This document shows, in pieces, positions 4,802 to 24,162 of a stretch of 24,162 bases of DNA. Numbering within the stretch: the stretch's first letter is position 1; the number at the start of each line of letters is the position of its first letter. The translations under genes and the position numbers were made by a program. The DNA lies in IMG/VR virus record IMGVR_UViG_3300043673_000013, positions 1-24,162 of that record. One strand, 5' to 3'. Below the pieces are notes generated by a model. The model did no database searches. It was given only the letters and a program-made list of their open reading frames with translations, and was not told where the DNA came from. This DNA is from a virus.

Positions 4802-4834
4802 GTGTGTCAGATTGGTCCTACGGACCCCAAAACG

Positions 4835-4854
4835 ACCCGCAACTGCGGGTTTTT
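4835..4854 (+). terminator. Intrinsic terminator after the Q-like gene (tR'-like)
   Basis: ACCCGC (4835-4840) pairs with GCGGGT (4845-4850) across AACT, and five T (4850-4854) follow. A further small stem, GGTCC/GGACC (4814-4826), precedes it. It would end transcripts from the candidate late promoter unless the Q-like protein modifies the polymerase. All late genes lie downstream. Confidence 0.65.
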
Positions 4855-4874
4855 GCGTCTCAGAAGGCCGCATA

Positions 4875-6433: not shown

Positions 6434-6446
6434 AGGACTTCTCGCC

Positions 6447-6716: not shown

Positions 6717-6761
6717 AGCCAAACGCTCCACACCTACCATTTCGACAAGGAGATTTTCCCC

Positions 6762-7244: not shown

Positions 7245-7248
7245 ATCG

Positions 7249-7617
7249 ATGCTTCTGGCGCATTCCGACGTCTACAAAACCCCTCGGCCTCACGAGGAAG
7301 AACTGTGCAGGCCCGGGGATTTGGCCGAGGTTCGCCGCAGTCACTGCACAGCGGAGAGCGGCTTGCTCGTGCAGGTCATGGGCGAGCCGCATTTCTGTTT
7401 CTGCCAATGCGCCGAGTGTGGACAGGAGGTCACGGAGTATTTCGTTGAGGTGTGGGCGGCGGATGCGGCCTGGTGGTTCAAGACACCGGGCCCGTGGTTC
7501 ATGCCGATCAAGTGGCTGAAGCGCATCGATCCGCGCGATCCTCTGAAAGTGGCGCGTATCAAAAATTACGCGCCGCTCGATGCGACGCCTGAACAACTCG
7601 TCATTGCCAATAGGTAG
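7249..7617 (+). CDS. Cys-containing hypothetical protein
   Basis: This 122-aa protein starts MLLAHSDVYKTPRPHEEEL at 7249, five bases after the preceding TAA; an in-frame ATG at 7207 lies inside the previous gene and is less likely. The centre has CFCQCAECG (about residues 50-58), whose Cys pairs could hold a zinc ion, followed by an aromatic stretch (AAWWFKTPGPWFMPIKWLKRID). The mixture suggests a small folded protein with a metal knuckle. No family recognised. It immediately precedes the repeat protein. Confidence 0.55.
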   Translation: MLLAHSDVYKTPRPHEEELCRPGDLAEVRRSHCTAESGLLVQVMGEPHFCFCQCAECGQEVTEYFVEVWAADAAWWFKTPGPWFMPIKWLKRIDPRDPLKVARIKNYAPLDATPEQLVIANR

Positions 7618-7620
7618 TCC

Positions 7621-8889
7621 ATGAGCCTGTTTCGATCGCCGCAGGTTCCGCAGCAACCGCCGCAATACTTCACGCCGGGGCTGCCGCTTGGCATTCCGCG
7701 GCCGCACCAAGACATGCAGCTGCAGCAGTCGGGCGCCTACTACCGGCAGCGGCCGGACAATGAAGCCGCGCAGCTCGCCGCCGGCGTGACGCGTCGCATG
7801 GTTACCACTGGCCAGACGGTAAGCGCACCAAAGCCGCGCCAGAGCAGTCAGGATCATGCGGGCTGGCGCCAGCGCATCGAGGTGCAGCTGCCGCCAACCT
7901 ACAACGCGACTGCTTCGGGAGCGGCGCCTCCGCAGTTCGTACCGTCCAGCACGCCGCAAAATCAAGCGACGTGGCGATCGCGCTACGAGATATTGCAGCC
8001 GCAAACGTTGTTTGCGAATCAGGCGGGCGTGGCGATCGTCTTTGTGCCGGCGCCGGACTATTTGGGCTTTGATTCGACGGCCGATGAGCCGCCGCAGCAG
8101 CCGCAAAGCTTTGCGGTGCAATCGGTGCCGCAAGCTTTTGTGCCAGCCCCAGCACTGCAAATGCTGCCAAGCAATCGCTGGGCTCTGGAATGGATCGTCG
8201 AGAACTACTCGGTCGAGTTCACGCCAGGATTTACGCCAGCAGCGGCCTTCGTGCCGGCCGCGCCGCTGCAAATACCATCGAATGTCAGATGGCCGATCGA
8301 ATGGATCGTTGAGAATTACGGTGCTGAGTTCACGCCTGGGTTACCGCTTGGCGTTCCAGCGCCGCGGCAGAGCGATCAATCCCACGCGATATGGCGATCG
8401 CGCGTTGAGATTCAGCAGCCGCAAGTATTCGCGCCGATTCAGCCGCCGCAGGTGGTTTATGTGCCGCACACAGATTTTCAGATGGCGGCGTATTTTCCAG
8501 CGCATCCGATCACGGTCGAGATTTTAAGTGAGCAGCTGGTCACGGAGTTTACGCAGAGCGCGATCACGCCATTTGTACCCGCGCCCGCGCTGCAGATGCC
8601 CTTCGCGCAAGCTACGCGAAACGAGTGGTCAATCCTGCTGCTGCAGCAGCGGGTAACGACGGGAATTCCGCGCGGCACACCGCAGCCGAGACAGGGCGAT
8701 CAGACCGCTGCGTACTACCGTCAGCATGTTGAGATTCAGCAGCCGATTTACTTTGCGTACATTGCGCCGATACCGCTATCACTCAGGCGCGATGAGTTTG
8801 TTGCGGGACGCGATCAGATTCGTTACACCGTGGAGCGCGACGTCGAATTCAGCATGCCGCGCGAGAAAGTGAAGTTCAGCCCAACATGA
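7621..8889 (+). CDS. Pro/Gln-rich repeat protein of unknown function
   Basis: This 422-aa protein is built from two alternating repeat types. Type A (about 18-45, 62-94, 108-131, 238-270, 347-378) has the pattern TPGLPLGIPRPRQ, D/SQ, A-Y/W-YRQR-VEIQQP. Type B (about 172-203, 209-240, 281-312, 318-349) has the pattern FVPAPALQM, N-RW-IEWIVENY, EFTPG. It is very rich in Pro, Gln and Ala with few Lys and no Cys, and has no signal peptide or membrane segment. The repeats suggest an extended beta-type or fibrous structure, for instance a virion appendage or a scaffold, but I know no family with this signature. ATGA overlap with the next gene. Confidence 0.7.
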   Translation: MSLFRSPQVPQQPPQYFTPGLPLGIPRPHQDMQLQQSGAYYRQRPDNEAAQLAAGVTRRMVTTGQTVSAPKPRQSSQDHAGWRQRIEVQLPPTYNATASGAAPPQFVPSSTPQNQATWRSRYEILQPQTLFANQAGVAIVFVPAPDYLGFDSTADEPPQQPQSFAVQSVPQAFVPAPALQMLPSNRWALEWIVENYSVEFTPGFTPAAAFVPAAPLQIPSNVRWPIEWIVENYGAEFTPGLPLGVPAPRQSDQSHAIWRSRVEIQQPQVFAPIQPPQVVYVPHTDFQMAAYFPAHPITVEILSEQLVTEFTQSAITPFVPAPALQMPFAQATRNEWSILLLQQRVTTGIPRGTPQPRQGDQTAAYYRQHVEIQQPIYFAYIAPIPLSLRRDEFVAGRDQIRYTVERDVEFSMPREKVKFSPT

Positions 8890-9972: not shown

Positions 9973-10557
9973 ATGCGTTCCACAATCAAAGATAGAAAAC
10001 GCGAAATAGCGATCGCGCAGGATATGACTGAAAAAAGGCCGAATGGTCGTCCAGCGTATGTGTGTTTGCTGGAAAAGCGATGTGGCAATTGCGGCTCGAT
10101 TAAGCAACTTTCGGATTATCGAAGGACTCCCAGCAAGTTCGACGGCCGCGAAACGGTATGCAAGGTCTGCGAGCGTCCCCGCCGCGCTGGCCGCGGATGG
10201 TCTGGTATTCGAACGCCTGAACAGCGGCGAGCATTAGAAGCGCGCCTGCGTCTGGATGCGAATTTCCTTCTAAACAAGCGCATGAGGAACTCGATACGCA
10301 AGGCGCTCGCCGGTGGCAAATCTGGGCGCAGATGGGAATCGCTGGTCGGCTACTCGCTGGCCAATCTCGTGACGCATTTGGAATCGAGGTTCCTGCAGGG
10401 AATGTCGTGGTCGAATATCGGCAAATGGCACATCGATCATAGGAAACCGAAGTCTCTGTTCGACGCTTCGCAAATTCGCGAATGCTGGGCGTTGTCGAAT
10501 CTGCAGCCATTATGGGCAATAGACAACCTGCGCAAGGGCAGTCGTCTTGCAGCGTGA
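9973..10557 (+). CDS. HNH endonuclease next to the terminase
   Basis: This 194-aa protein has a zinc-ribbon-like N-terminal part (Cys37, Cys40, Cys63, Cys66: CGNCGSIKQLSDY, then CKVCE), a basic helical middle, and an HNH core at about 151-189 (WHIDHRKPKSLF...CWALSNLQPLWAIDNLRKG) with the catalytic-type DH pair and the N/H-position LQPL--DN. HNH proteins beside the terminase are known to assist packaging in HK97-type phages, but this zinc-ribbon subtype is also common as a free-standing homing nuclease. The start is uncertain: ATG 9973 has a distant GGGAGG, and ATG 10024 gives a 177-aa form. It overlaps the small terminase start by 11 nt. Confidence 0.75.
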   Translation: MRSTIKDRKREIAIAQDMTEKRPNGRPAYVCLLEKRCGNCGSIKQLSDYRRTPSKFDGRETVCKVCERPRRAGRGWSGIRTPEQRRALEARLRLDANFLLNKRMRNSIRKALAGGKSGRRWESLVGYSLANLVTHLESRFLQGMSWSNIGKWHIDHRKPKSLFDASQIRECWALSNLQPLWAIDNLRKGSRLAA

Positions 10558-11143
10558 GGCACAGTCCGTCAGTTGGTTGGCTGTCAACCTGGGAATGGAC
10601 AGGCGCACGCTGAATTCGAAGCTCGAGGGATTGAAGCCCGCGTCCGAAACAAAGACGAAGCGCGGTATTGATCGGAAATACTTCGTTCGCGATGTCGTAG
10701 ATGCAATATGGGCTCGTGGATCTGGCGAGGCCGAGTATCTTGACCCAGACCAAGAACGCGCTCGCAAGGACAAAGAAACGGCCGACAAGCTTGCGATGGA
10801 GAATGCGCTGCGACGGCGCCAGCTCGTCGACATTGCCAGCGTCTCGCTAGTCTGGATCGATCAAATGGCCGGAATGCGAGCGAAGCTGCTCAGCATGCCG
10901 ACCAAACTCGGGCCGCAGCTACTCCATGTTACAGACGCCAGAATCGTCGCCGATAAGATCCAGGACGAGGTCTACGCAGCGCTCAATGAATTGGCCGAGC
11001 TATCTTTCGATAGCGAAGAAACGACTGGCGAAGGATCGGCGCATTCTGAAGGCGCCCCCAAAGCTGACTATAAGCCAGTGGGCGGACGCGGAAAGAAGGC
11101 TGAGCAGCGAGTCAAGCTCGGAGCCAGGCCAGTGGCGAACTGA
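10547..11143 (+). CDS. Terminase small subunit, Nu1-like
   Basis: This 198-aa protein probably starts at a TTG, with AAGGG about ten bases before it and inside the end of the HNH gene. Residues 8-40 (VSWLAVNLGMDRRTLNSKLEGLKP) form the DNA-binding winged-helix/MerR-like start seen in lambda Nu1. Then come a charged helix (ERARKDKETADKLAMENALRRRQLVD) and a C-terminal dimer-type region (IDQMAGMRAKLLSMPTKLGPQLL). The small subunit recognises cos DNA and passes it to the large subunit. The last roughly 50 residues are low-complexity and lie over the start of the large-subunit gene. Confidence 0.8.
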   Translation: MQREAQSVSWLAVNLGMDRRTLNSKLEGLKPASETKTKRGIDRKYFVRDVVDAIWARGSGEAEYLDPDQERARKDKETADKLAMENALRRRQLVDIASVSLVWIDQMAGMRAKLLSMPTKLGPQLLHVTDARIVADKIQDEVYAALNELAELSFDSEETTGEGSAHSEGAPKADYKPVGGRGKKAEQRVKLGARPVAN

Positions 11144-12884
11144 CAGGGCCCCGTATCAGCGCGGGCTGATGGACGCGGTAGCTGACCCGCGGATTCTCGA
11201 AATATGGGTCATGAAGTCAGCGCAGATCGGCTGGACCGAGATGCTGAACAATGTGATCGGTTTTTACATCGATCAGGACCCGTCACCGATCTTGTTGGTG
11301 CAGCCGACGATAGATGTTGCCGAGGCGTGGTCGAAAGATCGACTTGCGCCAATGGTGCGTGACACGCCGTGCCTCAGAGACAAGATCACAGATTCCAGGG
11401 CACGCGACGGCAACACACTTCTTCATAAGAAGTTTCGCGGCGGCCATTTGACTATCGCCGGCGCGAACTCGCCGTCCGGATTACGATCTCGTCCGATACG
11501 GATAGCGCTATTCGATGAGGTCGACGGATTTCCTGCAAGCGCAGGGGCGGAGGGAGACCCGTTCAGCCTCGGCAAGAAGCGAACGACGACGTTCTGGAAT
11601 CGCAAAATTTTGGCAGGCTCAACGCCGACGATCAAAGGGAGCAGCCGCATCGAGGCCGGTTTCGATGAATCGGATCAGCGTTATTACTTCGTGCCGTGTA
11701 ACCATTGCCGCGAATTTCAGCGGCTCATATGGCCGCAGGTCAAATGGGACCCAGCCGAGCCGGCGAAGGCCTGGTATGCGTGCCAACACTGCGGCGCGGT
11801 TCTCACCGACGCGGATAAGCAGGTCATGCTGCGGGTCGGCGAGTGGCGCGCGACGAAGCCGTCGAAGGGCATCGCGGGTTTCCATATCTCGGAGATTTAC
11901 TCACCCTGGGTGACCTGGGGCGAAATGGCCGTTGCTTTCCTTACCGCGAAGAAATTTCCAGAGACGTTGCAGACCTGGATCAACACGGCGCTTGGTGAGA
12001 CCTGGGAGGACAAGGGCGAGACGCTCGAGCCAAAAGGGTTAGCCGCGCGCATGGAGGCCTACACGGCCGATAGGCTGCCTCCCGGTATTTTATTGCTGAC
12101 CTGTGGCACTGATGTTCAGGACGATCGCCTCGAAACAACCGTTTGGGGCTGGGGCGCGGATGAGGAATGCTGGCGAGTCGAGCACATCGTGCTTCGTGGC
12201 AATCCTGGATCTCAGGCGTTGTGGCTCGAGCATGACGCGATTTTGCGCCGGCGCTGGAAGACGGACGATGGGCGGCAGCTGCTGATCGAAGCGGCCGCGG
12301 TCGATTCCGGCGGCCATTTCACTGATCACGTCTATCGGTATTGCTCAGAACGCAAGCGATTTCGGGTCTTCGCCATCAAAGGCCAGGGCGGTCCGGGCAG
12401 ACTCGTCTGGCCGAAAAAGGCATCCCGCAGCTCCAAGTCGCGCGTCTCGCTCTGGATGATCGGCGTCGATACGGCAAAGGAATTGCTGTATGGGCGCTTG
12501 AAGAAAGTCACGGAACAGGGCCCGGGCTACGTGCACTTCGATGCCGATACGACGAACGAATTCTTGGAGCAGATGACGTCCGAGACCGTTGTGTTTCGTC
12601 AGGTCCAGGGCCGCAAGGTTCGGTTGTGGAAGCCAAAGAAGACAGGCATCCGGCAAGAGGCACTCGACTGCTTCGTCTACGCCTATGCAGCGATGATCGG
12701 CCGCGGCGGCCCGCGCGTGCTCGCCGGCCGCCATTCGAAGCCAGTGCAAACAGTTCAAGCGGAAGAAGTAGGACCCAATGACGCCACGCAGGACGAAGAA
12801 CAAGAGCAGCCGACGCCCGCGCCAGTTAAGCGCATCGTCCAGCGGATCCGGCCGGCGCGTCGCGGCTGGGCCAAGAGCTGGTAA
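10986..12884 (+). CDS. Terminase large subunit, lambda gpA-like
   Basis: This 632-aa protein is the ATPase and nuclease of DNA packaging. Residues 77-84 (KSAQIGWT) form the Walker A-like motif of the gpA family, 174-178 (LFDEV region) Walker B, and 211-217 (GSTPTIK) motif III. CNHC (238-241) and CQHC (266-269) form a zinc knuckle typical of gpA. The nuclease part begins at GTDVQDDR (374-381), with AVDSGG and EALDCFVYAYAA further on. Length agrees with lambda gpA (about 640 aa). The start is uncertain: the conserved part begins near residue 22, and ATG 10986 lies 158 nt inside the small terminase gene. TAA is directly followed by the next ATG. Confidence 0.9.
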   Translation: MNWPSYLSIAKKRLAKDRRILKAPPKLTISQWADAERRLSSESSSEPGQWRTDRAPYQRGLMDAVADPRILEIWVMKSAQIGWTEMLNNVIGFYIDQDPSPILLVQPTIDVAEAWSKDRLAPMVRDTPCLRDKITDSRARDGNTLLHKKFRGGHLTIAGANSPSGLRSRPIRIALFDEVDGFPASAGAEGDPFSLGKKRTTTFWNRKILAGSTPTIKGSSRIEAGFDESDQRYYFVPCNHCREFQRLIWPQVKWDPAEPAKAWYACQHCGAVLTDADKQVMLRVGEWRATKPSKGIAGFHISEIYSPWVTWGEMAVAFLTAKKFPETLQTWINTALGETWEDKGETLEPKGLAARMEAYTADRLPPGILLLTCGTDVQDDRLETTVWGWGADEECWRVEHIVLRGNPGSQALWLEHDAILRRRWKTDDGRQLLIEAAAVDSGGHFTDHVYRYCSERKRFRVFAIKGQGGPGRLVWPKKASRSSKSRVSLWMIGVDTAKELLYGRLKKVTEQGPGYVHFDADTTNEFLEQMTSETVVFRQVQGRKVRLWKPKKTGIRQEALDCFVYAYAAMIGRGGPRVLAGRHSKPVQTVQAEEVGPNDATQDEEQEQPTPAPVKRIVQRIRPARRGWAKSW

Positions 12885-13091
12885 ATGAGCTTCTTCTACG
12901 CACCGCCAATGACTCGCGTACCCGATGGCGCAAGCGATTCTGTGCGGCGTCGAATGTATCTGGAGTACGTCTCTGAGCTGGTGAGATTTAATCCGCACTG
13001 CTTCCTGCTGCCAGGCGTCAAAAAGCGCTGGTGGCATTTGTGGAAAAACGAATTTCCAAAGTGCCTGCTGCCTCCTGGTGTAACGCCGTGA
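12885..13091 (+). CDS. Small hypothetical protein between terminase and joining protein
   Basis: This 68-aa protein starts MSFFYAPPMTRVPDGASDSV immediately after the terminase stop (TAAATG). It has a basic, aromatic C-terminal half (FNPHCFLLPGVKKRWWHLWKNEFP). Its length and place fit gpW of lambda (68 aa), but the sequence does not show the gpW pattern, which is instead at the end of the next gene. Function unknown. Its TGA overlaps the GTG of the next gene. Confidence 0.55.
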   Translation: MSFFYAPPMTRVPDGASDSVRRRMYLEYVSELVRFNPHCFLLPGVKKRWWHLWKNEFPKCLLPPGVTP

Positions 13092-13636
13092 CCGCTGTTG
13101 TTCCTGATCAGGTCCCGTCCTCGCTCATCGCGGGCGATACCTGGACGTTCACGCGTGACTATGCGAATTACCCCGCGCCGACCTGGGCCGCCACGCTATA
13201 CGCGGAATTCAGCGGCTCACAGTTCAACGCAGCGGCGAGCGCCTCAGGTACCGCTCAGAGTTTCAGTATCACAGCGAGCGCGACGGGCGGCTACAAAACC
13301 GGCCGCTACAAGTGGTGGGTGCGCGTCACGGATGGCACATCGAGCTTCACGGTCGAGAGCGGATGGTTCGACGTCAATCCGGATCCTGCCGCCAGCGGCA
13401 CGCGCGATCAGCGCTCCTGGGCGCGGCGCACGTTGGATGCACTCGAATGCACGCTCGGGGGACGCGCTTCCTCTGATCAATTGGCGATGACCATCAATGG
13501 CCGTTCGCTGTCGAGGATACCGCTGCAGGAGTTGCTCATCTTTCGGGACAAGCTGCGCCAGGAAGTGCGAACGGAGGAGCAGGGCGGCAAGTCTGGCTCT
13601 GGAAGAAACATCAAGGTGAGGTTCTCGCGTGGCTGA
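13088..13636 (+). CDS. Ig-like plus gpW-like head-tail joining protein
   Basis: This 182-aa protein starts at a GTG in a GTGA overlap with the preceding gene. Residues about 8-98 (AGDTWTFTRDYANYPAPTWAATLYAEF...YKTGRYKWWVRVTDGTSSFTVESGWFDVNPDP) form an Ig-like beta domain. Residues 109-179 (RSWARRTLDALECTLGGRAS...INGRSLSRIPLQELLIFRDKLRQEV...NIKVRF) match the gpW type of head-tail joining protein, which closes the head after packaging. This two-part layout is, to my knowledge, common between terminase and portal genes. It overlaps the portal start by eight bases. Confidence 0.65.
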   Translation: MTAVVPDQVPSSLIAGDTWTFTRDYANYPAPTWAATLYAEFSGSQFNAAASASGTAQSFSITASATGGYKTGRYKWWVRVTDGTSSFTVESGWFDVNPDPAASGTRDQRSWARRTLDALECTLGGRASSDQLAMTINGRSLSRIPLQELLIFRDKLRQEVRTEEQGGKSGSGRNIKVRFSRG

Positions 13637-15287
13637 TCAAAGACCGTACGGTTCTGGTGGTCTTTGGAGCGCAATGCCGCAGAAACCCGCAGCCGCGCCT
13701 CGATCTAAGTCAGGATTTGGCACAAGAATGTATGCCGCCGCGCGGCTCTCAAGATTGAATTCTGACTGGAAGTCGACGAATAGCAGCGCAGACACTGAAC
13801 TCGTTGCAAGCATTATCACGCTGCGGGCGAGATCCCGTCAGCTTGTTCGAGATTCCAGTTTCGCGAAGCGCGCCCGCACCATCGTGGTCAACAATGTGAT
13901 CGGCAGCGGCATAGGCCTGCAGGCCCAGGTCAAGACGTCGCGCGATGTTCTCAATGATCGCGTGAATTCGGATATCGAGGACGCGTGGTGCCAGTGGGCG
14001 GAAGCTGAGAATTGCCACACAGGTGGACGCTTGGCATTCCAGCACCTCGAACGCGCCTGTATGGGCCAGGTGTTCGAGGCGGGCGAGGTATTCATCAGGA
14101 AGCATTACAGTGCTTTCGGCGCGATGGGCGTGCCTTTCGCCCTTGAGATGATTGAGGCTGAACGCATTGCCGATTACATCGATGTGCCGTTCGTCAATGT
14201 TCAACCCGGCAATCAGTTTCGAATGGGTATTGAGGTTGATGCTTTCCAGAAGCCTGTTGCCTACTGGATACGAAAGCGTCACCCAGGCGAGATTCTGTTT
14301 TACGGCGATTACAACAGCACGCTGATTGAGCGGGTTCCCGCGGATCAGATCATTCACCTTGCCGTTATTGACCGTTGGCCGCAGACCCGCGGTGAGCCCT
14401 GGCTGCATAGTGCTGCGCGGCGCTTGAACGATATGGACGGCTACGCAGAAGCCGAAATTATTCGCGCTCGAACGCAGGCAAGCATGGCCGGCGGCATTGA
14501 GACGCCGGAAAATTCCGAGTCTTTCGGCGACGCAAACGCTGCGGACGGTTCTACGGATGATGGCAGCGTCGAGATGGAAATGGAGCCAGGGATCTTAAAG
14601 CGCACCAACCCGGGCGAGAAGATCATCCTTCCTTCGCCGACTTCGCCGAATCCCGCCGCTGATCCGTTCATGCGCATGATGCTGCGCGAAGTGGCTGCCG
14701 GCGCTGGCGTCTCGTATGAATCGCTGTCTCGCGATTATTCGCAGACGAGTTACAGTTCCGGACGCCTGGCACTTCTTGATGACCGCGATCTTTGGAAGTT
14801 CTTTCAGTCGTGGTTCATCTGCGATTTTCGCTCGGTCGTCCATAAGGAATGGCTACGCCAGACGGTGCTTGCGCAGAAGATCCCGAGCATTTCCGTCGCG
14901 CAGTACGCGCTCGATCCTCGCAAGTTTGAGGCTGTGCGATACAAGCCGCGCGGCTGGTCATGGATCGACCCCACGAGCGAAGTTACGGCCTACAAGATGG
15001 CGGTGCGCAGCGGCTTCACGACGGTTACTGACGTGATTGCAGCAACTGCTGGCGGCCAGGATGTCGAGGATATTCTCGATACGCGCCGGCGCGAGCTTGA
15101 TTTGATGAAGGCGAAGGACTTGACCTTCGAGACAGATCCGGTGGCCTTCAACGATAAGGGCCAGACGCAGCCGCTGCCGGCGGATCCGAACGTCAACGTT
15201 ACCGGAACAGAAGTCCCGGTAACGCCCGTAGAGGCGCAGAGCACGGCGCCGAAAACTCCGCCCGGCCGCGTCGTTTCACTGAAATAA
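13629..15287 (+). CDS. Portal protein, lambda gpB family
   Basis: This 552-aa protein starts at a GTG preceded by GGTGAGG, overlapping the previous TGA as GTGGCTGA. It follows the lambda portal family: N-terminal RSRQLVRDSSFAKRARTIVVNNVIGSGIGLQAQV, central RIADYIDVPFVNVQPGNQFRMGIEVDAFQKPVAYWIRKRHPG, the VPADQIIHLAVIDRWPQTRGEPWLHSA strand-helix element, and the GAGVSYESLSRDYSQTSYSSGRLALL stretch of the stem. Portal rings hold the terminase and later the tail. Length is close to gpB (533). A disordered Pro/Thr-rich tail ends the protein. Confidence 0.92.
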   Translation: MADQRPYGSGGLWSAMPQKPAAAPRSKSGFGTRMYAAARLSRLNSDWKSTNSSADTELVASIITLRARSRQLVRDSSFAKRARTIVVNNVIGSGIGLQAQVKTSRDVLNDRVNSDIEDAWCQWAEAENCHTGGRLAFQHLERACMGQVFEAGEVFIRKHYSAFGAMGVPFALEMIEAERIADYIDVPFVNVQPGNQFRMGIEVDAFQKPVAYWIRKRHPGEILFYGDYNSTLIERVPADQIIHLAVIDRWPQTRGEPWLHSAARRLNDMDGYAEAEIIRARTQASMAGGIETPENSESFGDANAADGSTDDGSVEMEMEPGILKRTNPGEKIILPSPTSPNPAADPFMRMMLREVAAGAGVSYESLSRDYSQTSYSSGRLALLDDRDLWKFFQSWFICDFRSVVHKEWLRQTVLAQKIPSISVAQYALDPRKFEAVRYKPRGWSWIDPTSEVTAYKMAVRSGFTTVTDVIAATAGGQDVEDILDTRRRELDLMKAKDLTFETDPVAFNDKGQTQPLPADPNVNVTGTEVPVTPVEAQSTAPKTPPGRVVSLK

Positions 15288-15302
15288 GCAAAGGAAATTC
15301 CT

Positions 15303-15512
15303 ATGGCAAAAGAAGTGCAAATGGCCTACGACGCGGCCAAGCGCGAGGCCGTCTTTACATTCGAGAACGGCAAGACGCTAACCCTGGGCCAGGTCACAGA
15401 AGAGCAAGCAAAGCGATTCCGCGAGCGGAACGCCGAGGAATTCCAGAAACGTGACGCCTGTTTCACCAGCGACAGCGGCGAATTCACCCGCGGAGCGTCT
15501 GACAATGGCTGA
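15303..15512 (+). CDS. Small charged protein between portal and protease
   Basis: This 69-aa protein starts MAKEVQMAYDAAKREAVFTF with AAAGGA upstream. A strand pair (REAVFTFENGKTLTLGQV) and a charged helix (TEEQAKRFRERNAEEFQKRD) are visible. Small proteins of this type often sit between portal and capsid genes in HK97/lambda-type phages; function is unknown. It overlaps the next gene start as ATGGCTGA. Confidence 0.65.
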   Translation: MAKEVQMAYDAAKREAVFTFENGKTLTLGQVTEEQAKRFRERNAEEFQKRDACFTSDSGEFTRGASDNG

Positions 15513-17409
15513 GGCTAAACGAACCCGAGGATTGTCTTTCTCATCCGAGGCGGTCGTGCAGCGCTGGTATGGCGGCGAGAAGTTGGATCATTCGCCCGGC
15601 GCGGCGCGCATGTCTTTCATCAATAGCGGGCGCGCGCCGCTGCTGCGCGATCACAACACTCGCAATCAGGTCGGCGTCCTCGACGCGGCAACGATCGACG
15701 CAGATAAGGTCGGACGTGCCACAGCGCGTTTCGGCAAATCTGCAGCCGCAGCTGATGCTCTCCAGGATGTAGATGATCGAATCCTGACGAACACATCGGT
15801 CGGCTATCGCATTCATAAGATGGTGCTTGAGTCGACGAGCGACACGGAAGGCGACGTCTATCGGATGACCGACTGGGAGCCAAACGAGGTGAGCCTGGTT
15901 TCCGTGCCGGCTGATCCATCTGTCGGCATGGGCCGCAATTTGGAACCAGCGGCCGCCGATCCGGATCCGCCGGATAAGCCCGAACCGATCACTGATCCAT
16001 TACCCGAAGCCCGCACCCCGCGGGCTTCTTCATTTTCGGCCCCCGCGGCCATTTCCCCAAAGGCCCAGGAGGCCATTCATATGACTGAAGCAGAAAAAGC
16101 CGCGGCGGCTGCAGCCGAAGCAGCGTCCCGTGCTGAACCCAAAGTCGGCGCCGTCGAAGCGGAGCGCGAGCGACGCGATGCGATCACCGCTCTTTGCAAG
16201 GCGAACAAGATTGACTCTCGCGTCGAGGCGCGCTGGATCGAGGAAGGCACGCTGCTTCAAGGGAAGGGTGGGGTTTCGTCCCAGATCCTTGATGTCATGG
16301 AGGAACGCGGCAAACTAAAACCGACGGCGGCATCCTCATTGGGTCTTTCGGGTAATGAAACGCAGCGCTACAGCCTGATCAGGGCCATTCGTTCCATGAG
16401 GACCAATGCAGATCGCGCCACGATCGAAGCCGCCTCATTCGAGCGTGAATGTTCGGCCGAAGTGGCTAAAAGAATCGGCCGCGAAGGATCTGGCAGCATT
16501 TTCATACCCGGCGAAGTGCTGACGCGATCCATGTCCATGTCACCCATGGAGATGGAGCAGCAGCGTGCCATGGCAACCCAACCCGGCTCGAAGGGCGGCT
16601 ACATGGTGAGCGTCACCAACATGGGTTTCATCGACATTCTGCGCAATCGCAGCGTGGCGATCCGTATGGGCGCTCGTCAGCTGTCAGGCCTGCAAGGAAA
16701 TGTCACCTTCGCTCGTCAGACGGGCAAGCAATCAGTGACCTGGCAGGGCGGCGATGGCAGTTCGGTGAGCGCGGCCGATCAGGCATTGGGTCAGCTCTCG
16801 ATGACGCCCAGGACGGCGATCTGCGTCACCGACGTTTCCGAGCAATTGCTGCGCCAGTCCTCGCCGAGTGCCGAGCAGTTCATCATGGCGGACTTGGCAG
16901 CGGTGATTGCGATCGACGGCGTCGACAACGCAGCGATCAATGGCGCAGGTGGCGCACAGCCGCTTGGCATCAAGAACACGACAGGCATCGCGAGCGGCCA
17001 GGACGCCTCGAGTGCGACGTATGCCAAGATTCTGGCCTTCCCGCAAACCGCCGGTTCTGCAAATGCTATACGCGGCAATCCGGGCTTCGTGACCAACACG
17101 GCCGGGGCATCACGCTTGATGCAGGTGCAGCGCTTCACCAGCACCGACACGCCGTTGTGGATGCCAAATATGCTGGAAGGGACGCTAGTCGGCTTCAATG
17201 CCATGTCCTCGGAGCAGTTGGCCTCGGGCAACCTCATCTTCGGATCATGGGATGAGTTGGTGATCGGCGATTGGGGCGTCCTGGAGCTGTCCACCGACAA
17301 CGGCGGAACGCGCTTCAATCAGGCGCAGGTGGGCCTGCGTGCCTTATGGATGGTCGACATCATGGTCCGCTATCCGCAGGCATTCGTGGTCGGCACGAAC
17401 CTGTCGTAA
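15505..17409 (+). CDS. Prohead protease fused to HK97-fold major capsid protein
   Basis: This 634-aa ORF joins two head genes. Residues 1-145 match the U35/S78 prohead protease: LLRDHN with His50, and LTNTSVGY with Ser98 as the likely catalytic pair, followed by NEVSLVSVPADPSV. Residues 150-192 are a Pro/Ala-rich linker. From Met193 (MTEAEKAAAAAAEAASRAEP) an Ala/Glu helical delta (scaffold) region leads into the HK97 capsid fold, with GSIFIPGEVLTR, GGYMVSV, NVTFARQTGKQSVTWQGGDG and ADLAAVIAIDGVDNAAINGAG. ATG 16081 has AGGAGG eight bases upstream, so free capsid protein (442 aa) may also be made. The TAA overlaps the next ATG. Confidence 0.9.
   Translation: MAEAKRTRGLSFSSEAVVQRWYGGEKLDHSPGAARMSFINSGRAPLLRDHNTRNQVGVLDAATIDADKVGRATARFGKSAAAADALQDVDDRILTNTSVGYRIHKMVLESTSDTEGDVYRMTDWEPNEVSLVSVPADPSVGMGRNLEPAAADPDPPDKPEPITDPLPEARTPRASSFSAPAAISPKAQEAIHMTEAEKAAAAAAEAASRAEPKVGAVEAERERRDAITALCKANKIDSRVEARWIEEGTLLQGKGGVSSQILDVMEERGKLKPTAASSLGLSGNETQRYSLIRAIRSMRTNADRATIEAASFERECSAEVAKRIGREGSGSIFIPGEVLTRSMSMSPMEMEQQRAMATQPGSKGGYMVSVTNMGFIDILRNRSVAIRMGARQLSGLQGNVTFARQTGKQSVTWQGGDGSSVSAADQALGQLSMTPRTAICVTDVSEQLLRQSSPSAEQFIMADLAAVIAIDGVDNAAINGAGGAQPLGIKNTTGIASGQDASSATYAKILAFPQTAGSANAIRGNPGFVTNTAGASRLMQVQRFTSTDTPLWMPNMLEGTLVGFNAMSSEQLASGNLIFGSWDELVIGDWGVLELSTDNGGTRFNQAQVGLRALWMVDIMVRYPQAFVVGTNLS
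16006..16036 (+). terminator. Terminator-like hairpin inside the protease-capsid ORF
   Basis: GAAGCCCGC (16006-16014) and GCGGGCTTC (16020-16028) form a perfect 9-bp stem with an ACCCC loop, followed by TTCATTTT. It has the form of an intrinsic terminator but sits within an open reading frame, 45 bases before the second start. It looks like a former intergenic region between protease and capsid genes. The T tract is interrupted, so termination is probably partial. Confidence 0.55.
16067..16083 (+). promoter_or_regulatory. Internal ribosome binding site and start for free capsid protein
   Basis: AGGAGG (16067-16072) is a full consensus Shine-Dalgarno with an 8-base spacer to ATG 16081, in frame with the upstream protease. 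It is the strongest ribosome binding site seen in the window. It would allow synthesis of capsid protein without the protease domain, giving the excess a capsid shell needs. Confidence 0.6.
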
Positions 17410-17636
17410 TGCTGTACCGCGCGCTTCGCGGCGTTTGCATCGGTGTCGATCGACATTTGAAGGTCGACGACACCGCAGACCTGGATCCCGCGACAGGCAA
17501 ATTCCTCACCAGCATCGGTGCGGTCGAAGAGGTGAAACCTGAAAAGGTTGAGCCACCGAAACCAGAACCGGTTGTTGATGAATCCCTCCCTTCAGATTCT
17601 GCACCGCCGGCCAAGTCCGGCAAAAAGGAGAAATAG
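17409..17636 (+). CDS. Small hypothetical head-region protein
   Basis: This 75-aa protein starts MLYRALRGVCIGVDRHLKVDD in a TAATG overlap with the capsid gene. Its first 45 residues look folded (RGVCIGVDRHL, DPATGKFLTSIGAVEEV); the rest is a Pro/Glu/Lys-rich disordered tail ending KKEK. Similar small genes often follow the capsid gene in lambda-like phages, where lambda has FI. Function not assigned. Confidence 0.6.
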   Translation: MLYRALRGVCIGVDRHLKVDDTADLDPATGKFLTSIGAVEEVKPEKVEPPKPEPVVDESLPSDSAPPAKSGKKEK

Positions 17637-17638
17637 TT

Positions 17639-18019
17639 ATGTTGCTTAGTCAAGCTTCCGCAGCCACATCCACGTCATTGCTCGACGCTGTCTCGGCTGC
17701 CAATACTGCTGCCGCGACGAGCGGCGCTGGCAAGTGGCTGGACGTTCGACCCTACGATGGTGAATTTCTGGTCACGCAAAACCTAGGCGCTGTGACCGGC
17801 ACTATCGCCGGCAAGCTGCAAAGCGCAAGCGATGCGAACGGCACCGGCGCGGCTGATATCGCCGGTTACACGTTTGGCACCAATACGGCGAACAGCACCT
17901 CATCCCAAGCTGTGGATCCTAAAAAGGTCCCCGGTGGATTCTTGGGATACGTCGGAACCATCGCCACGGGCCCGTCGATCGTCAGCGTCGTAGCGTCCGC
18001 CAAGAAGGCTGTCGTCTAA
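17639..18019 (+). CDS. Probable head decoration or stabilising protein
   Basis: This 126-aa protein starts MLLSQASAATSTSLLDAVSA with GGAG upstream. It is small, Ala/Gly/Thr-rich and strand-prone (KWLDVRPYDGEFLVTQNLGAVTGTIAGKLQSA...GGFLGYVGTIATGPSIVSVVASAKKAVV). Size, composition and place directly after the capsid genes fit a capsid decoration or stabilising protein, but I see no specific family match. Followed after ten bases by the head-tail joining gene. Confidence 0.55.
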   Translation: MLLSQASAATSTSLLDAVSAANTAAATSGAGKWLDVRPYDGEFLVTQNLGAVTGTIAGKLQSASDANGTGAADIAGYTFGTNTANSTSSQAVDPKKVPGGFLGYVGTIATGPSIVSVVASAKKAVV

Positions 18020-18029
18020 GACTTTTCCC

Positions 18030-18311
18030 ATGGAGAACGATGCAGACCGCCTGGCGATGATCAAGTCGCTGGGCGGTGTTCTCGTGAGCCAGCCGGACGG
18101 GGAATTCTTCGGGATCTTCGAAAGCGCTTATTCAAACGCGCTGTCGAATGGGGTGGACATTGAGAGCGCAGATCCTACGATTTTGGCGCGCACCTCAGAC
18201 GTATCAGCGCTCGTGAAGGATACGGTGCTGACCGTGGCATTGGTGCCATGGCGCGTGAAGCGATCAGAATCCGATGGAACAGGCATGACGACGCTGCGAC
18301 TTAAATCATGA
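18030..18311 (+). CDS. Head-tail joining protein, gpFII-like
   Basis: This 93-aa protein starts MENDADRLAMIKSLGGVLVS. GEFFGIFESAYSNALSNGVDIESADPTILARTSDVSALVKDTVLTV and the closing TGMTTLRLKS agree with small beta-sandwich head-tail attachment proteins of the lambda gpFII type. Such proteins sit on the connector and receive the tail. Position between the decoration and tail terminator genes is as expected. Ends in an ATGA overlap. Confidence 0.65.
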   Translation: MENDADRLAMIKSLGGVLVSQPDGEFFGIFESAYSNALSNGVDIESADPTILARTSDVSALVKDTVLTVALVPWRVKRSESDGTGMTTLRLKS

Positions 18312-18766
18312 GTCATCGCGCGCAGCAGATTATTGATGCGGTGGAGGCCGCCCTCGACGCCTCAACGTCCCTGCAAAACGCGAAAATCTTCAAGCACCGA
18401 TCATTTTCGCTGCTCGAGGCGAGTGATGAAATGCCCTGCGTGACAGTCAATTATGGCGCCGATCAGCCGCTCGACCCGCTGGGTGCATTGAATCTGTCAT
18501 TTCTCGACAGCCTGATCGAAGTGTCAACGGTCGGCTTCGTCGGCGCTGACGACGAGCCAAGCGCTATGTCGGCGCTTATGGACATGAGAACCGCGATTCA
18601 TGTGGCCCTGCTTGCAGACCCCACGCAGGGCTTGGGCTTCATCATCAACACGCGTTATGCGGGGGCAACTGAACCGGCGCTGGATTCCTCGACGCAGAGA
18701 ATCCTCGCCTCTTTGAAATCATCCTGGTTCGTGCACTACCGCATGAATGTCTCAGACCCGTCTTGA
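18308..18766 (+). CDS. Tail terminator protein, gpU-like
   Basis: This 152-aa protein starts MSHRAQQIIDAVEAALDAST in an ATGA overlap. The sequence has an N-terminal amphipathic helix, a core strand MPCVTVNYGADQP, then SFLDSLIEVSTVGFVGADDEPSAMSALMDMRTAIHVALL and YAGATEPALDSSTQRILASLKSSWFVHYR. This layout of helix, strands, central helix and final strand is that of tail terminators (gpU, HK97 gp10), which cap the tail tube and join it to the head. Confidence 0.7.
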   Translation: MSHRAQQIIDAVEAALDASTSLQNAKIFKHRSFSLLEASDEMPCVTVNYGADQPLDPLGALNLSFLDSLIEVSTVGFVGADDEPSAMSALMDMRTAIHVALLADPTQGLGFIINTRYAGATEPALDSSTQRILASLKSSWFVHYRMNVSDPS

Positions 18767-18777
18767 GGAGCTAATCA

Positions 18778-19725
18778 ATGGGCAATTTACGCGTTTCGAA
18801 CGAGGTCATCCTGGCCAAAATCGAAAGTGTCTATAACACCGACCCTGTTCCGACAGCCGGAGCGAATGCCGTGCTGGTTCAGAGCGTTGTCCCAAAGGTC
18901 TCGGGGCTTCGGATGGTCCAGCGTCCGGTGATCAAGGCGAATCTCAATAACGTGCAGGCTGTCTATGGCGGCCAACTTACCGAGTTGAGCTTCGATTGCG
19001 AAATCAAGGGATCAGGTGCAGCCGGTACCGCCCCAGAAATCGGCGTGCTGTTTCGCGGCTGCGGGCTGCACGAAACGGTGGTCGGCGCGACCTCTGTCAC
19101 CTACACCCCGCTTTCGAGCGCGCATGAATCGATCACGCTCTACTGGTATGAAGGTGGAAAGAAGCTGCACAAGATCACGGGCGCGCGCGGGGACTATACG
19201 ATCAAGGTCAGCGCCGGCGGCATTATGCTGGTTTCCTTCAAGTTCACCGGGCATTACTCGGCGCCGACTGACGTATCGATTCCAACGCCGACTTACCTCA
19301 CGACCGTGCCTCGCGCCGCACTCGCGATGACGATCACCGTCGGTGCCGTGGCCGTCGTCGCGCGCGATTGGAGCGTCGCGGCCGGCCAGACAATTGCCAT
19401 GCCGCCATCGATCCAAGCGCCCGACGGCTACAGCGAAATTCAGATCACGGATCAGAATTTCAGCGGCACTATGACAATTGAGTCAGAACTGGCCGCTGTG
19501 ATCGACGTTGATACGGAGCTGCAGAACGGTACTGCGGTTACCTTCTCACCTGGCACTCTGGGCAGCGTCGCTGGGAATAAGTTTGCGCTCACGAGTGCAA
19601 CGAACGGCCTGTATTGGACCTCGCGCGACTGGACAGATGCTGAAGGGCTACGGCTGCGCACGATGCCCTTCGGCCTGGTCGACAGCGCCGCCGGAAACGA
19701 TGCGCTCTCGATGGCGTTCACCTAA
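18778..19725 (+). CDS. Major tail tube protein
   Basis: This 315-aa protein starts MGNLRVSNEVILAKIESVYN with GGAG upstream. It is a beta-rich tube protein: the opening VILAKIESVYNTDPVPTAGANAVLV is typical of phage tail tube subunits, and the middle GQLTELSFDCEIKGSGAAGTAPEIGVLFRGCG matches the tube-core region of this class. A second Ig-like part seems present towards the C-terminus. Location between the tail terminator and the chaperones is the standard place for V in lambda. TAA is directly followed by the next ATG. Confidence 0.75.
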   Translation: MGNLRVSNEVILAKIESVYNTDPVPTAGANAVLVQSVVPKVSGLRMVQRPVIKANLNNVQAVYGGQLTELSFDCEIKGSGAAGTAPEIGVLFRGCGLHETVVGATSVTYTPLSSAHESITLYWYEGGKKLHKITGARGDYTIKVSAGGIMLVSFKFTGHYSAPTDVSIPTPTYLTTVPRAALAMTITVGAVAVVARDWSVAAGQTIAMPPSIQAPDGYSEIQITDQNFSGTMTIESELAAVIDVDTELQNGTAVTFSPGTLGSVAGNKFALTSATNGLYWTSRDWTDAEGLRLRTMPFGLVDSAAGNDALSMAFT

Positions 19726-20073
19726 ATGGCGCGCAAACTGCTGCGGTATTGGTTCACGCCTGAATATCAGCCTAACGCCGACGCGCCTGTCGAATTTGAG
19801 TTGAAGCCGCTCGATCAAGGGACGCTGCACACCGTGCAGGCCTCGTTCAATAGCGGCGTTCCAAACTGGGTGGGAATCAAGGCTGGATTCGAAAACGGCG
19901 TGACGGGGTGGAAAAACATCACGCTGGATGGGTCCGCCGTCGAATTCAACCGCGGTAACGCGCGGCGGATATTGAATCAGGTCGGGAGTGCCGACTGGAT
20001 GATCTGGCTGGGACAGATAGTTGGCGAGCTTTACAGCAATGCATTTCTGAGCGACGAAGAAAAAAAAACTTAA
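19726..20073 (+). CDS. Tail assembly chaperone, gpG-like (unshifted product)
   Basis: This 115-aa protein starts MARKLLRYWFTPEYQPNADAP right after the tube gene stop. Its end is GEDEEKKT-type coding on an A-rich run, directly followed by TAA. It takes the position of lambda G and probably coats the tape measure during tail assembly. A fraction of ribosomes should shift by -1 at 20061-20067 to make the longer form. Fold cannot be confirmed here, but context is strong. Confidence 0.75.
   Translation: MARKLLRYWFTPEYQPNADAPVEFELKPLDQGTLHTVQASFNSGVPNWVGIKAGFENGVTGWKNITLDGSAVEFNRGNARRILNQVGSADWMIWLGQIVGELYSNAFLSDEEKKT
20061..20067 (+). other. -1 ribosomal frameshift slippery site
   Basis: Nine A (20060-20068) give the heptamer A-AAA-AAA in the zero frame, two codons before TAA (20071-20073). 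Slipping back by one base continues into an open frame that ends just past the tape measure start. Sites of this kind are conserved in tail chaperone genes of long-tailed phages; the A7 type is an efficient bacterial slippery sequence. Confidence 0.75.
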
Positions 20074-20360
20074 GTCTAGCCGTAGGCGTTGCAACCGATC
20101 CGCAATGGGCACCATGCGGCGCGTGCGCATGCATCGATGGCGTCTCGCCGTTCCCACGCTGGGAAATCATCGGGATTATCGAAGCGTCACATTTTTGCCC
20201 GCGAAAGCAAGTTACCGACGATTCCAGGGACTGGATTGAACTTTTCTCGCATTACAAAGACGGCCACTTGCTGCGCGGCGGCGGACTGCTTTCGCAGCCC
20301 GCTATTTACCTTGAAGCCATGAGAATGATTCAACAATTCATCGGGGTCTTAGGTGCCTGA
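20067..20360 (+). CDS. Frameshift extension of the tail chaperone, gpT-like
   Basis: The -1 frame is open for 97 codons with no ATG start at its head, so it is made only as an extension of the G-like protein (fused product 211 aa). It reads NLSLAVGVATDPQWAP, a CGACAC cluster, PFPRWEIIGIIEASHFCPR, and the characteristic HYKDGHLLRGGGLLSQPAIYLEAM. The G-x-LLxxGGLLxQPA pattern is typical of T-type chaperone extensions that contact the tape measure. TGA (20358-20360) overlaps the tape measure GTG at 20353. Confidence 0.75.
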   Translation, partial: NLSLAVGVATDPQWAPCGACACIDGVSPFPRWEIIGIIEASHFCPRKQVTDDSRDWIELFSHYKDGHLLRGGGLLSQPAIYLEAMRMIQQFIGVLGA

Positions 20361-22194
20361 CGCAAAAGCAACCTTTCAACTGGTCGGCGAGGATGCCACC
20401 GCGGCGGCGTTTCGCTCCGCGTTAGGTGCCACGCAGGCCTTCGCCGCCAAAGCGCAGGATTTGCTAAAGGGCGCGTTCGCGCTCGGCGGTGCGATGATCG
20501 CCGTTGATTTCGTCAAAAGCATCGCCGATCTTGGTGAGAATCTACAGAAGGGCGCAGAGCGCGCAGGCATAGCACAGGCGAACTTCAATCAGCTTGCAGC
20601 CGCCTTTGGAGTTGCAGACGTCAGCGCGGAATCGCTGTCGAAGGGTATCAAAAACATGCAGGTCGCCTTATCGAAGGCGGCGGATGGCGACGGCTCGATC
20701 GCTGCGATATTCAATTCGATCGGCTTATCTGCGGTAAGCCTCAAGCAGCAGGCGCCGGACGTGCAGCTGCTCTCGATCGCCGAGGCTTTGAGCAAGATCG
20801 AGGATCCGGCGGATCGCGCGCGAATTGGCACGCAACTGCTCGGCAAGCAGTTCCTCGAGCTTGAGCCGCAATTGCTCAAAGGAGCCGCGGGACTAGATGC
20901 CGTCGTGCAGGCCGCGCACGGCATGAGCGATGAGGATACGGAACGCCTCTCTAAATTTAGCCAGCAGATGAATTCTATTGGCCAAAGCTTAAAGCTGTTC
21001 GCCGCAGGCGCGGTTGCCGGAACGGTGAATTCTTTCGGCCAATTGAAAGACATCTTTACCCCCGATTTGGCTGCAAAGATCAAAACGATTCAGGACGCCC
21101 TTGCGAATCCTGGGAACTTCGATGAATCGACATTATCGCGGATGCGCACGCAGCTGGCCGGTTTGCAGGCCCAGGTATCGCAGGTCAGCAAGCCGTCCGA
21201 GAATTTCATGTCGGCGATGGCCGAGCAGGGCAAGGGCAATATCGAAGCTCTCGCGCGCAGCCTGCTTATGCTGTCAGTCCATGAAGATGATCTCGACGCT
21301 GCACTGGCGCTTGAGAAGAGCAAGCGGCTAGACCAGGAAGACAAGGACACGCAGACCCATGCCGAGAAGCGGCTAGACGTCGAAGCAAAGATCGATGATC
21401 TCTTAGTCGAGAAGCGCATCACCCAGATTGAAGCATTCAGGCGCCTGTACGACCAGGACATCACGAATAGCAACGCGGCTTTAAGCCGAAATGCGATGGC
21501 CGAGAACGCAAAGGATGTCGAGGATGCCTGGAAGCAAACCGAGGACAGTCTGAAGCAGAATTTCGCCAATATCGGCGCTGACTCCAAACTCGCCACTGAG
21601 AACATGAAAGCGGATTTCGATAAGACTGCTTCGAACGCCAAGCAGGCGGCACAGAGCATCGAGGATTCCTTCGCGACGTTCCTCGTCGACCCCTTCAGCG
21701 GGGGCCTTAAAAAAATGCTCGCCTCCTGGATTCAGACGATCGATCAGATGGTCGCGAAGGCAGCGGCGCAATCGATCTTCAAATCACTGTTCGGTGATAC
21801 GCCCGGCGGCCTCGGCGGTGTGTTCTCGAATTTCCTAAGCGGCCAATATGGCGCCAGCACTTCCGTCACCTACAACGGCGGCGGTGACCCAGTTCCCGGC
21901 GCACTTGGGCAAGTGCCAGGCTATGCGACCGGCGGATCATTCAATGTCGGCGGAAGCGGTGGCACTGACTCGCAGCTCGTCAGATTCAAGGCAACGCCAG
22001 GCGAGAAAGTCACGGTGAGCAGGCCGGGGCAAAGCGCCGGCGGCGTCACCGTCGTCAATCACAACTACATCGATGCGCGCAGCGATTCCGCGCAGATCGC
22101 GCAGATGATCGGCCAGAGCACGCAATACGCGATTCAGCAGTCTACGGCGCGAGTGGTAGACATGGTCAAGCGCGGGCGGTTCACCAGTGGCTGA
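20353..22194 (+). CDS. Tape measure protein
   Basis: This 613-aa protein starts at GTG 20353 (MPDAKATFQLVGEDATAAAF). It is Ala-rich and helical with long coiled-coil-prone segments, a hydrophobic stretch at about residues 38-60 (LKGAFALGGAMIAVDFVKSI), and the usual Gly-rich closing part (GYATGGSFNVGGSGGTDSQLVRFKATPGEKVTVSRPG) ahead of QIAQMIGQSTQYAIQQSTARV. Tape measures set tail length and enter the cell with DNA. At about 1.5 angstrom per residue, the tail would be near 90 nm. Location after the chaperones confirms the call. Overlaps the next start as GTGGCTGA. Confidence 0.88.
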   Translation: MPDAKATFQLVGEDATAAAFRSALGATQAFAAKAQDLLKGAFALGGAMIAVDFVKSIADLGENLQKGAERAGIAQANFNQLAAAFGVADVSAESLSKGIKNMQVALSKAADGDGSIAAIFNSIGLSAVSLKQQAPDVQLLSIAEALSKIEDPADRARIGTQLLGKQFLELEPQLLKGAAGLDAVVQAAHGMSDEDTERLSKFSQQMNSIGQSLKLFAAGAVAGTVNSFGQLKDIFTPDLAAKIKTIQDALANPGNFDESTLSRMRTQLAGLQAQVSQVSKPSENFMSAMAEQGKGNIEALARSLLMLSVHEDDLDAALALEKSKRLDQEDKDTQTHAEKRLDVEAKIDDLLVEKRITQIEAFRRLYDQDITNSNAALSRNAMAENAKDVEDAWKQTEDSLKQNFANIGADSKLATENMKADFDKTASNAKQAAQSIEDSFATFLVDPFSGGLKKMLASWIQTIDQMVAKAAAQSIFKSLFGDTPGGLGGVFSNFLSGQYGASTSVTYNGGGDPVPGALGQVPGYATGGSFNVGGSGGTDSQLVRFKATPGEKVTVSRPGQSAGGVTVVNHNYIDARSDSAQIAQMIGQSTQYAIQQSTARVVDMVKRGRFTSG

Positions 22195-23764
22195 TTTCCT
22201 GCTGCCGCCAGATTTCGACATCGGGGCCGCGACGCCAAATCTGGACGCCAACACCGCTTCCTTCAAAAGCCCCACCGTGGGCAGTACCCGCAGCGTCGAG
22301 CGCCTAGGCGATGCGCTGCGCTTTCAGTTTAATTTCTCCACCGTCAATGACAATCCCGCTACCGCCCGCAAGCGCGGGCGCATGCAGGCCTTCCTATCGG
22401 GCCTTCGCGGGCAATCAGGGCGCGTCTGGATGACCCCGCCTGGCGCGACGTTGCGCGGCTCGTTCTCTGCCCCTGAGTTATTAGCGAACAATGATTTCAG
22501 CGGCGGCACGACCGGCTGGTCGACGGATGCGCAGTACACGATAGCGGCGATTGATCGCGGCGTTCGCGCGACGCGAGCTAAAGTCTCAGGTGCAACGGAC
22601 GCGCTTTTTCAGAGCGCAACCGTGAGCACCGGGACTCCGTATGCCTTTCGTTTTTTCATCAATGCCGGACGCGGGTCAGCGCTGCTATCTCCCCTCGACA
22701 TTACCGACAACATCACGATAGCCGGCGGAATGTCGCAAGGAATGATGGAGGGGGCTTACGCGCCGGCATCATCTGGAGCGCATAACTTCGGTTTATTTGG
22801 AATTCAATCCGGTTTGGCCGGTGATTTTTTCGACGCTAAATGGGCATCGCTCTCGCGCTGCGCCCAGGTAGACAACGGCGTAAATCTGCTGCTGTTTTCC
22901 GATACGCCTGGGACGGGCACAAACTGGGCATCGACTGCGGCGACATTCGCGTCTACATCGTCGGTTGGGCCTGACGGCGCAGTTGACGCATGGGGTTTTA
23001 CCGAAACCACCGCAACGTCAGTTCATCAAGTGGTGCAGCCAGTTACGGTCGCATCTGGCGCTGCTGACTACATGACGAGCTTCGTTGTTCATGCGAGCAA
23101 TCGAACGTGGTGTTTTGTTCAGGCATTTGACGGTACGAACAACATTACGCAGTGGTTCAATTTAGCAACCGGCGCGCTTGGTACGTTGAGCGTTGGCACG
23201 AATTTTACTTCCATAGGTTCTATCTGCGCCGACCTAGGCAACGGCTGGAAGAGATGCATTATTGTCTATAGAAAGGCCAGCACTTCGACGAGCATGATAT
23301 CTGTACTGGGCTCAGCTACGGGTGACAACGTATCGTCATTTCTTGGCGTCTCGACTTCCACAGCGCTCTTGACCTGGCGCGCATCGTTTGCCCCATCATC
23401 CGTTCCGGTGCAGCCGGCGCAAACGGTGGCGAGCGCTCCGCCAGCTGGGACGCTGCAGACAGGCCTTCAATTGAACTTAAAAGGCCTTCCCCCCTCAGCG
23501 CAAGGCCTACTGCTGCCCGGTGACTATATCGAGTGCGGCTTGCAGCTGAATCAAATCGCATCCCCTCTCGATAGCGACGCGTCAGGCTTAGGAACCGCGA
23601 TTCTGACGCGCCCGCCGCGCAACAGCCCGGCCGATGGGACCGGCTTCGTGATCAACAACCCGATGGGCCGCTTTCTGGTGACGAGCAACTCGACCGGCTG
23701 GAATGAGCAGCCCGGGCGATTGTCGGACGCCTCGATCGAACTTGTCGAAGACATCAGCTTTTAA
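22187..23764 (+). CDS. Minor tail protein with a large inserted carbohydrate-binding-like region
   Basis: This 525-aa protein starts at a GTG inside the end of the tape measure gene. Residues 1-95 (LDANTASFKSPTVGSTRSVERLGDALRFQF...MQAFLSGLRGQSGRVWMTPP) and 421-525 (LQTGLQLNLKGLPPSAQGLLLPGDYIECGLQL...TAILTRPPRNSPADG) are the two halves of a minor tail protein of about 200 aa that usually follows the tape measure. Between them lies a region of about 310 residues with two beta domains: ELLANNDFSGGTTGWSTDAQ at 97-116 opens a CBM4/9-like jelly roll, and 260-400 has a second concanavalin-like pattern (AWGFTETTATSVHQV...LGNGWKRCIIVYR). They may bind surface glycans. Ends four bases before the next ATG. 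Confidence 0.7.
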   Translation: MADFLLPPDFDIGAATPNLDANTASFKSPTVGSTRSVERLGDALRFQFNFSTVNDNPATARKRGRMQAFLSGLRGQSGRVWMTPPGATLRGSFSAPELLANNDFSGGTTGWSTDAQYTIAAIDRGVRATRAKVSGATDALFQSATVSTGTPYAFRFFINAGRGSALLSPLDITDNITIAGGMSQGMMEGAYAPASSGAHNFGLFGIQSGLAGDFFDAKWASLSRCAQVDNGVNLLLFSDTPGTGTNWASTAATFASTSSVGPDGAVDAWGFTETTATSVHQVVQPVTVASGAADYMTSFVVHASNRTWCFVQAFDGTNNITQWFNLATGALGTLSVGTNFTSIGSICADLGNGWKRCIIVYRKASTSTSMISVLGSATGDNVSSFLGVSTSTALLTWRASFAPSSVPVQPAQTVASAPPAGTLQTGLQLNLKGLPPSAQGLLLPGDYIECGLQLNQIASPLDSDASGLGTAILTRPPRNSPADGTGFVINNPMGRFLVTSNSTGWNEQPGRLSDASIELVEDISF

Positions 23765-23767
23765 ACC

Positions 23768-24162
23768 ATGACTAGGTTCGTCAACTCAGCCGCCCAGACA
23801 GCCGCGGATGGTAAGCACGTTGTCTACTCGATCCTGGTGCAGCTTGATTTAGCGAGCGGCTTCGTGCGTGTTTTTAATGGCGCAGGCACCCTCGTATTCA
23901 ACGGCAACACCTATTTGGGGCTTGGCCAGTACGGAAGCATCGGCGCGATCGGCGAATCGATGCAGTTTCGCCCCGCCAATCCCGTCGTGCTGACACTCTC
24001 TGGCTTGCCCGACGGCATGATGCCGCTGCTGGCGGATGGTGCCGCGAATCGGGCTGACTTTTACGGTCGCTCCTGCCGCATTGATATCGCCTTCTTCGAC
24101 AGCAATAGAAAGATCCTCACCCCCATTGAGAATGCGGTGTGGGAAGGGCGCATGGATTCTAT
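23768..24162 (+). CDS. Minor tail protein (partial, runs off the right edge)
   Basis: At least 131 codons are open from ATG 23768 to the window end, starting MTRFVNSAAQTAADGKHVV. The region YSILVQLDLASGFVRVFNGAGTLVFNGNTYLGLGQYGSIGAIGESMQF, then VVLTLSGLPDGMMPLLADG, is typical of minor tail or baseplate hub proteins of the DUF2163-like class, with a start 'L-V-LD--SG-V-V--G-G-L---G-TY-G-G'. It belongs to the distal tail module that follows the tape measure. The C-terminus is outside the window. Confidence 0.65.
   Translation, partial: MTRFVNSAAQTAADGKHVVYSILVQLDLASGFVRVFNGAGTLVFNGNTYLGLGQYGSIGAIGESMQFRPANPVVLTLSGLPDGMMPLLADGAANRADFYGRSCRIDIAFFDSNRKILTPIENAVWEGRMDS

Follow-up and report, generated by a model that had tools for sequence, protein, structure and literature searches.

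The window analysed here is a 24,162-nt stretch of DNA, a 24-kb virus contig that carries lambda-type terminase, portal and connector genes together with a tape measure gene; the parts of the fusion gene described below lie on its plus strand. Three larger ORFs at 4812-8889 (291, 248 and 422 aa) have no Pfam or PHROG match, and neither has a 69-aa ORF (15303-15512) located between the portal gene and the gene under study. The stop of this small ORF overlaps the start region of the following gene (15487-15512, with a GGAG and ATG 15505) by 8 nt, and translational coupling between the two is possible.

From ATG 15505 an unbroken frame extends to 17409 and encodes 634 aa (67.3 kDa). A Peptidase_S78 prohead protease domain occupies residues 30-138 (15592-15918), and its residues H50, S98 and E128 are invariant in the 35 relatives compared. 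A Phage_capsid domain follows at residues 366-631, and the architecture is that of an HK97 major capsid protein: TIGR01554 scores 93.7 bits against a cut-off of 27.5, with residues 195-631 covering positions 3-384 of the 385 in the profile. The two domains are joined by a linker (15937-16080) that is predicted to be disordered, with AlphaFold2 pLDDT of about 30-48 over residues 146-194 and helices from residue 195. Within the linker lies a hairpin, GAAGCCCGC-acccc-GCGGGCTTC, which folds as drawn into a 9-bp stem (16006-16028); its 5' arm (16006-16014) codes in frame for E-A-R, and its 3' arm (16020-16028) is followed by the tail TTCATTTT (16029-16036). A candidate internal Shine-Dalgarno (SD) sequence, AGGAGG (16067-16072), stands 8 nt upstream of ATG 16081, which is residue 193, so that the internal start site coincides with the junction of the disordered linker and the helical delta domain. 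The frame nested in this way (16081-17409) would encode a free major capsid protein of 442 aa and 46.7 kDa, composed of a delta-like helical scaffold segment (16081-16593, residues 193-363, its end estimated from phage R4C) and the mature HK97-fold shell domain (16594-17406, residues 364-634, its start estimated from the R4C structure 8GTA). The original prediction of a protease-capsid fusion is thus borne out by an open frame with both domains; the hairpin, AGGAGG and ATG 16081 lie where it had placed them, give or take one base, and a disordered linker is likewise supported.

Protease-capsid fusions as such are already known, from PHROG 617, PHROG 4523 and NCBIfam NF045541 and from phages phiHAP-1, VP882, MD8 and R4C. 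The ORF is a full-length member of PHROG 617 (prohead protease/major capsid fusion; E = 5.6e-105, residues 3-632). It scores 155 bits against NF045541 (prohead protease/MCP fusion), below the curated cut-off of 525 bits and so outside that family, but this is a narrow model, as relatives such as VP882 also score below the cut-off. Searches of phage records by tblastn identified fusions in phiHAP-1, VP882, R4C, MQ-4, Mica and others, and fusion relatives were found on plasmid records too. Dinoroseobacter phage R4C and E. coli phage vB_EcoM-ep3 are cultured relatives that share this architecture. Loci were gathered from IMG/VR by profile search, with the addition of phage records including isolated phages, and two non-redundant sets were used, a subset of 91 loci and an extended set of 133. 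Protease and capsid share one frame in every locus examined (133/133), and none of the 133 has a stop codon in the linker, the peptide sequence of which is not conserved across relatives. The fused state in so many non-redundant relatives, isolated phages among them, rules out a sequencing or assembly error that joined two genes, and the lack of any relative with a linker stop indicates that the fusion is old. The available text of the MD8 paper (PMC8508860) describes a single, three-in-one gene, and that of the Murka paper (PMC10892653) a single gene whose product is termed a single propeptide; an internal start is mentioned in neither text. A literature search that covered only a minority of subscription journals returned no earlier report of an internal start in such fusions.

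We found that the internal start is widely retained. An in-frame linker start (ATG, GTG or TTG) preceded by an SD of at least 4 nt is present in 127 of the 133 loci; of the six without a recognisable SD, two are cyanophages, and five still have Met at the site. When the count is limited to ATG or GTG starts preceded, at proper spacing, by an SD of 4 nt or more, 86 of the 91 loci possess one, against 56.0 ± 3.4 (maximum 64) in synonymous shuffles of the same loci, a statistic that is too generous owing to relatedness among the loci. The other two reading frames offer a start with SD in 23/91 and 0/91. The proportion of in-frame ATGs that bear an SD is likewise highest in the linker (59%) compared with the protease (13%), delta (7%) and capsid (12%) segments of the 133-locus set. 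Up to 36 nt from the internal start, the RNA folds less than its synonymous versions do (mean z = +0.69), whereas other in-frame ATGs are more folded (z = -0.63 and -0.75; P < 1e-18). Between the window and its relative L002, synonymous changes affect 3 of 28 codons (~0.11) from the hairpin to eight positions past the start, compared with 0.40-0.45 in each of the three domains, and amino-acid changes are not reduced in this interval. These comparisons strongly support an internal start that is conserved and under selection, as the original prediction of a second start for free capsid protein had envisaged. A consensus scan of 15505-16081 found no promoter for separate transcription of the capsid gene. 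As a separate observation, a conserved GCCGCGGCGGGC run that directly follows the start is able to pair with GC-rich stretches lying 5' of the internal SD (16060-16125 in the window, and in relatives L003, L012-L014, L116 and L177), and in several relatives this pairing encloses the start site.

The hairpin has a narrower distribution. Its stem is the longest of 20 terminator-like sites in 10000-24162, a region in which shuffled sequence yields about 15 sites of any strength. The same hairpin, in the same place and codon register, is present in 20 distinct loci, and all nine pairs are Watson-Crick in all of them (180/180 cells paired). Three pairs have changes on both sides: one has gone from A-U to G-C through two synonymous changes, and the other two switch in L013, L042 and L116. 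In these three loci the encoded residues differ on both arms (EAG..PAS, EAAREAAS and EAALEAAS, respectively) and every pair is kept, so conservation of the peptide is rejected as the cause of the hairpin. The covariation score was attained in 0 of 500 shuffles, and for each locus the probability of a perfect stem, conditional on its protein and codon usage, is 0.005-0.04. The folding energy of the whole linker is ordinary relative to synonymous shuffles (z about -0.2), and the case for the hairpin is therefore one of covariation, not of energy. On this evidence the hairpin is a nucleic-acid structure maintained by selection in one lineage. It is absent from most of the wider family and hence not essential to a two-start mechanism. 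A family-wide hairpin was considered and rejected, as a sister clade has the linker peptide EVRMxRAS and imperfect pairing. In that clade (L130, L141, L166 and L170) the EVRMxRAS stretch tends to self-pair as RNA, less perfectly, and this is perhaps the ancestral state of the hairpin. Among 2.9 million viral contigs, the exact hairpin with its TTC tail occurs in 22 stretches, of which 14 lie within this linker; the remainder represent six distinct sites, each at the end of a gene or between two genes and most of them a short distance upstream of a start codon, which supports an intergenic origin or kinship of the hairpin.

The two halves of the fusion are indicated by their trees to have different histories, with modules exchanged across the linker and at least two types of protease and three of capsid involved. 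The protease (type A) groups the window with L018-L022 and L030 (100/100), whereas the capsid (type 1) groups it with the L122-L150 group (100/100), and the forced alternative grouping is rejected in both trees (AU test, P = 6.7e-11 and 0.001). The exchange involves 15505-17409 of the window and loci L001-L022, L120-L161, L175 and L179; in L175 a type-B protease is joined to the third capsid type with the hairpin still present. The delta segment follows the capsid, which places the joint between protease and delta, within the linker or close to it. PMC8508860 suggests that capsid exchange always includes the protease, but for this fusion family the trees show otherwise. The original prediction had described the linker as a fossil intergenic region, and had named a sequencing error that restores a stop as grounds for its refutation. 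Its intergenic character is upheld in part, by the copies of the hairpin at gene ends and gaps elsewhere and by the role of the linker as a recombination joint; the term fossil is not. Since selection acts on the signals at present and the fusion is of long standing, the linker is neither a decayed gap nor the product of a sequencing error, and 'living gene boundary inside an ORF' should replace the earlier description.

We interpret this locus as one gene that produces two overlapping proteins from two translation starts, to which we assign a probability of about 0.84. Ribosomes that initiate at ATG 15505 would make a 67-kDa protease-linker-delta-capsid fusion, and those that initiate at the internal AGGAGG/ATG 16081 would make a 47-kDa delta-capsid protein alone; judged from the sequence signals, production of both is very likely. 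As delta and capsid are common to the two proteins, they should co-assemble, and through the fusion the prohead would receive proteases as a minority component, on its inner, N-terminal side. The protease would later remove linker and delta to leave the bare shell domain. We infer that both proteins are made and assemble together, in a ratio that determines the protease dose. The nearest solved structure, by both sequence and fold, is the R4C capsid 8GTA, whose chain comprises exactly residues 362-629 (the C-terminal 268) of the 629-aa R4C fusion (L102); protease and delta are consequently absent from the model of the mature R4C shell. That shell has 415 copies, and the paper describing it does not use the word protease (PMC10276861). 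By analogy, the products of the window would be the 67.3-kDa fusion, the 46.7-kDa free capsid protein and a mature form of about 28 kDa. A shell without its N-terminal half would result equally from cleavage alone, if only the fusion were made, with a protease on every shell subunit released by self-cleavage and the SD-like motif a relic. The fused state of all examined relatives fits such a single propeptide, as do the annotations in the available text of PMC10892653 (one propeptide) and PMC8508860 (three-in-one gene). A relic would decay, yet the SD is kept well above synonymous expectation at 30-90% identity, and the start site is unfolded with synonymous change suppressed around it; we consider the single propeptide very improbable.

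For the hairpin, function can only be inferred, because the T-run is weak in most copies and the folding energy of the linker is ordinary. Our preferred reading, held at a little short of even odds, is that the hairpin works at the mRNA level where the two genes meet, and may slow ribosomes before the internal start or stabilise the capsid part of the message. Its shape and position, and the identical hairpins with TTC tails at gene ends and gaps in other phage contigs, would also suit a partial intrinsic terminator, acting to reduce capsid mRNA relative to protease mRNA or else silenced by translating ribosomes. All 20 in-frame copies have the stem, but a run of at least four T follows it in only five and seven have TTCGTCTC; moreover, termination here would reduce the most abundant virion protein and leave an mRNA without a stop codon. 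We regard a partial terminator as possible but less likely. There is a fairly small chance that the hairpin and linker serve mainly as a recombination joint, providing a short stretch of common sequence for the exchange of protease and capsid modules between phages. The conflict between the two trees and the presence of the hairpin alongside two types of protease and three of capsid point in this direction. Against this, the compensatory changes, some of which alter the peptide, keep pairing and not sequence, whereas homology-based recombination needs no pairing, and a true gene boundary can give rise to exchange as a side effect.

For phages that lack a separate protease gene, the question is how each prohead acquires the correct number of proteases; a conserved internal start in more than 100 fusions offers a direct and testable answer. 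Databases list the propeptide as the capsid protein and would miss what is likely the main product. The linker also provides an example of two genes that occupy a single reading frame and nevertheless recombine as modules. Tentatively, and with rather more doubt than confidence in the whole, we propose that in this entire family of tailed phages translation determines how many proteases enter each head, through one gene with two starts and co-assembly via the shared capsid part; that both starts are adjusted by a covarying in-frame RNA hairpin in one lineage; and that the linker is a live gene boundary for protease and capsid swaps that leave the fusion intact.

The window ORF has the same protein architecture as the known prohead protease/MCP fusions of phiHAP-1, VP882, MD8 and R4C; papers on these fusions, in their available text, speak of one product or propeptide and mention no internal start, whereas the window has a candidate one. 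As in HK97 gp4/gp5, a prohead protease lies upstream of an HK97-fold capsid protein with an N-terminal delta domain, but HK97 has two separate genes, and the window has a single ORF within which the second gene is nested. Herpesvirus UL26/UL26.5 yields a protease and a shorter product in one frame with a shared C-terminus, the short UL26.5 product having its own transcript and being scaffold, not capsid. In lambda C/Nu3, an in-frame internal start with its own SD lies towards the 3' end of the protease gene. The same arrangement is reported for Mu-like phages (PMC4378225). The window ORF resembles lambda C/Nu3 and Mu I/Z in having a conserved, same-frame nested start with its own SD; in those systems, however, the nested frame yields nothing but scaffold and the capsid protein is encoded by a separate gene, whereas in the window the nested frame runs through both the delta segment and the capsid domain.
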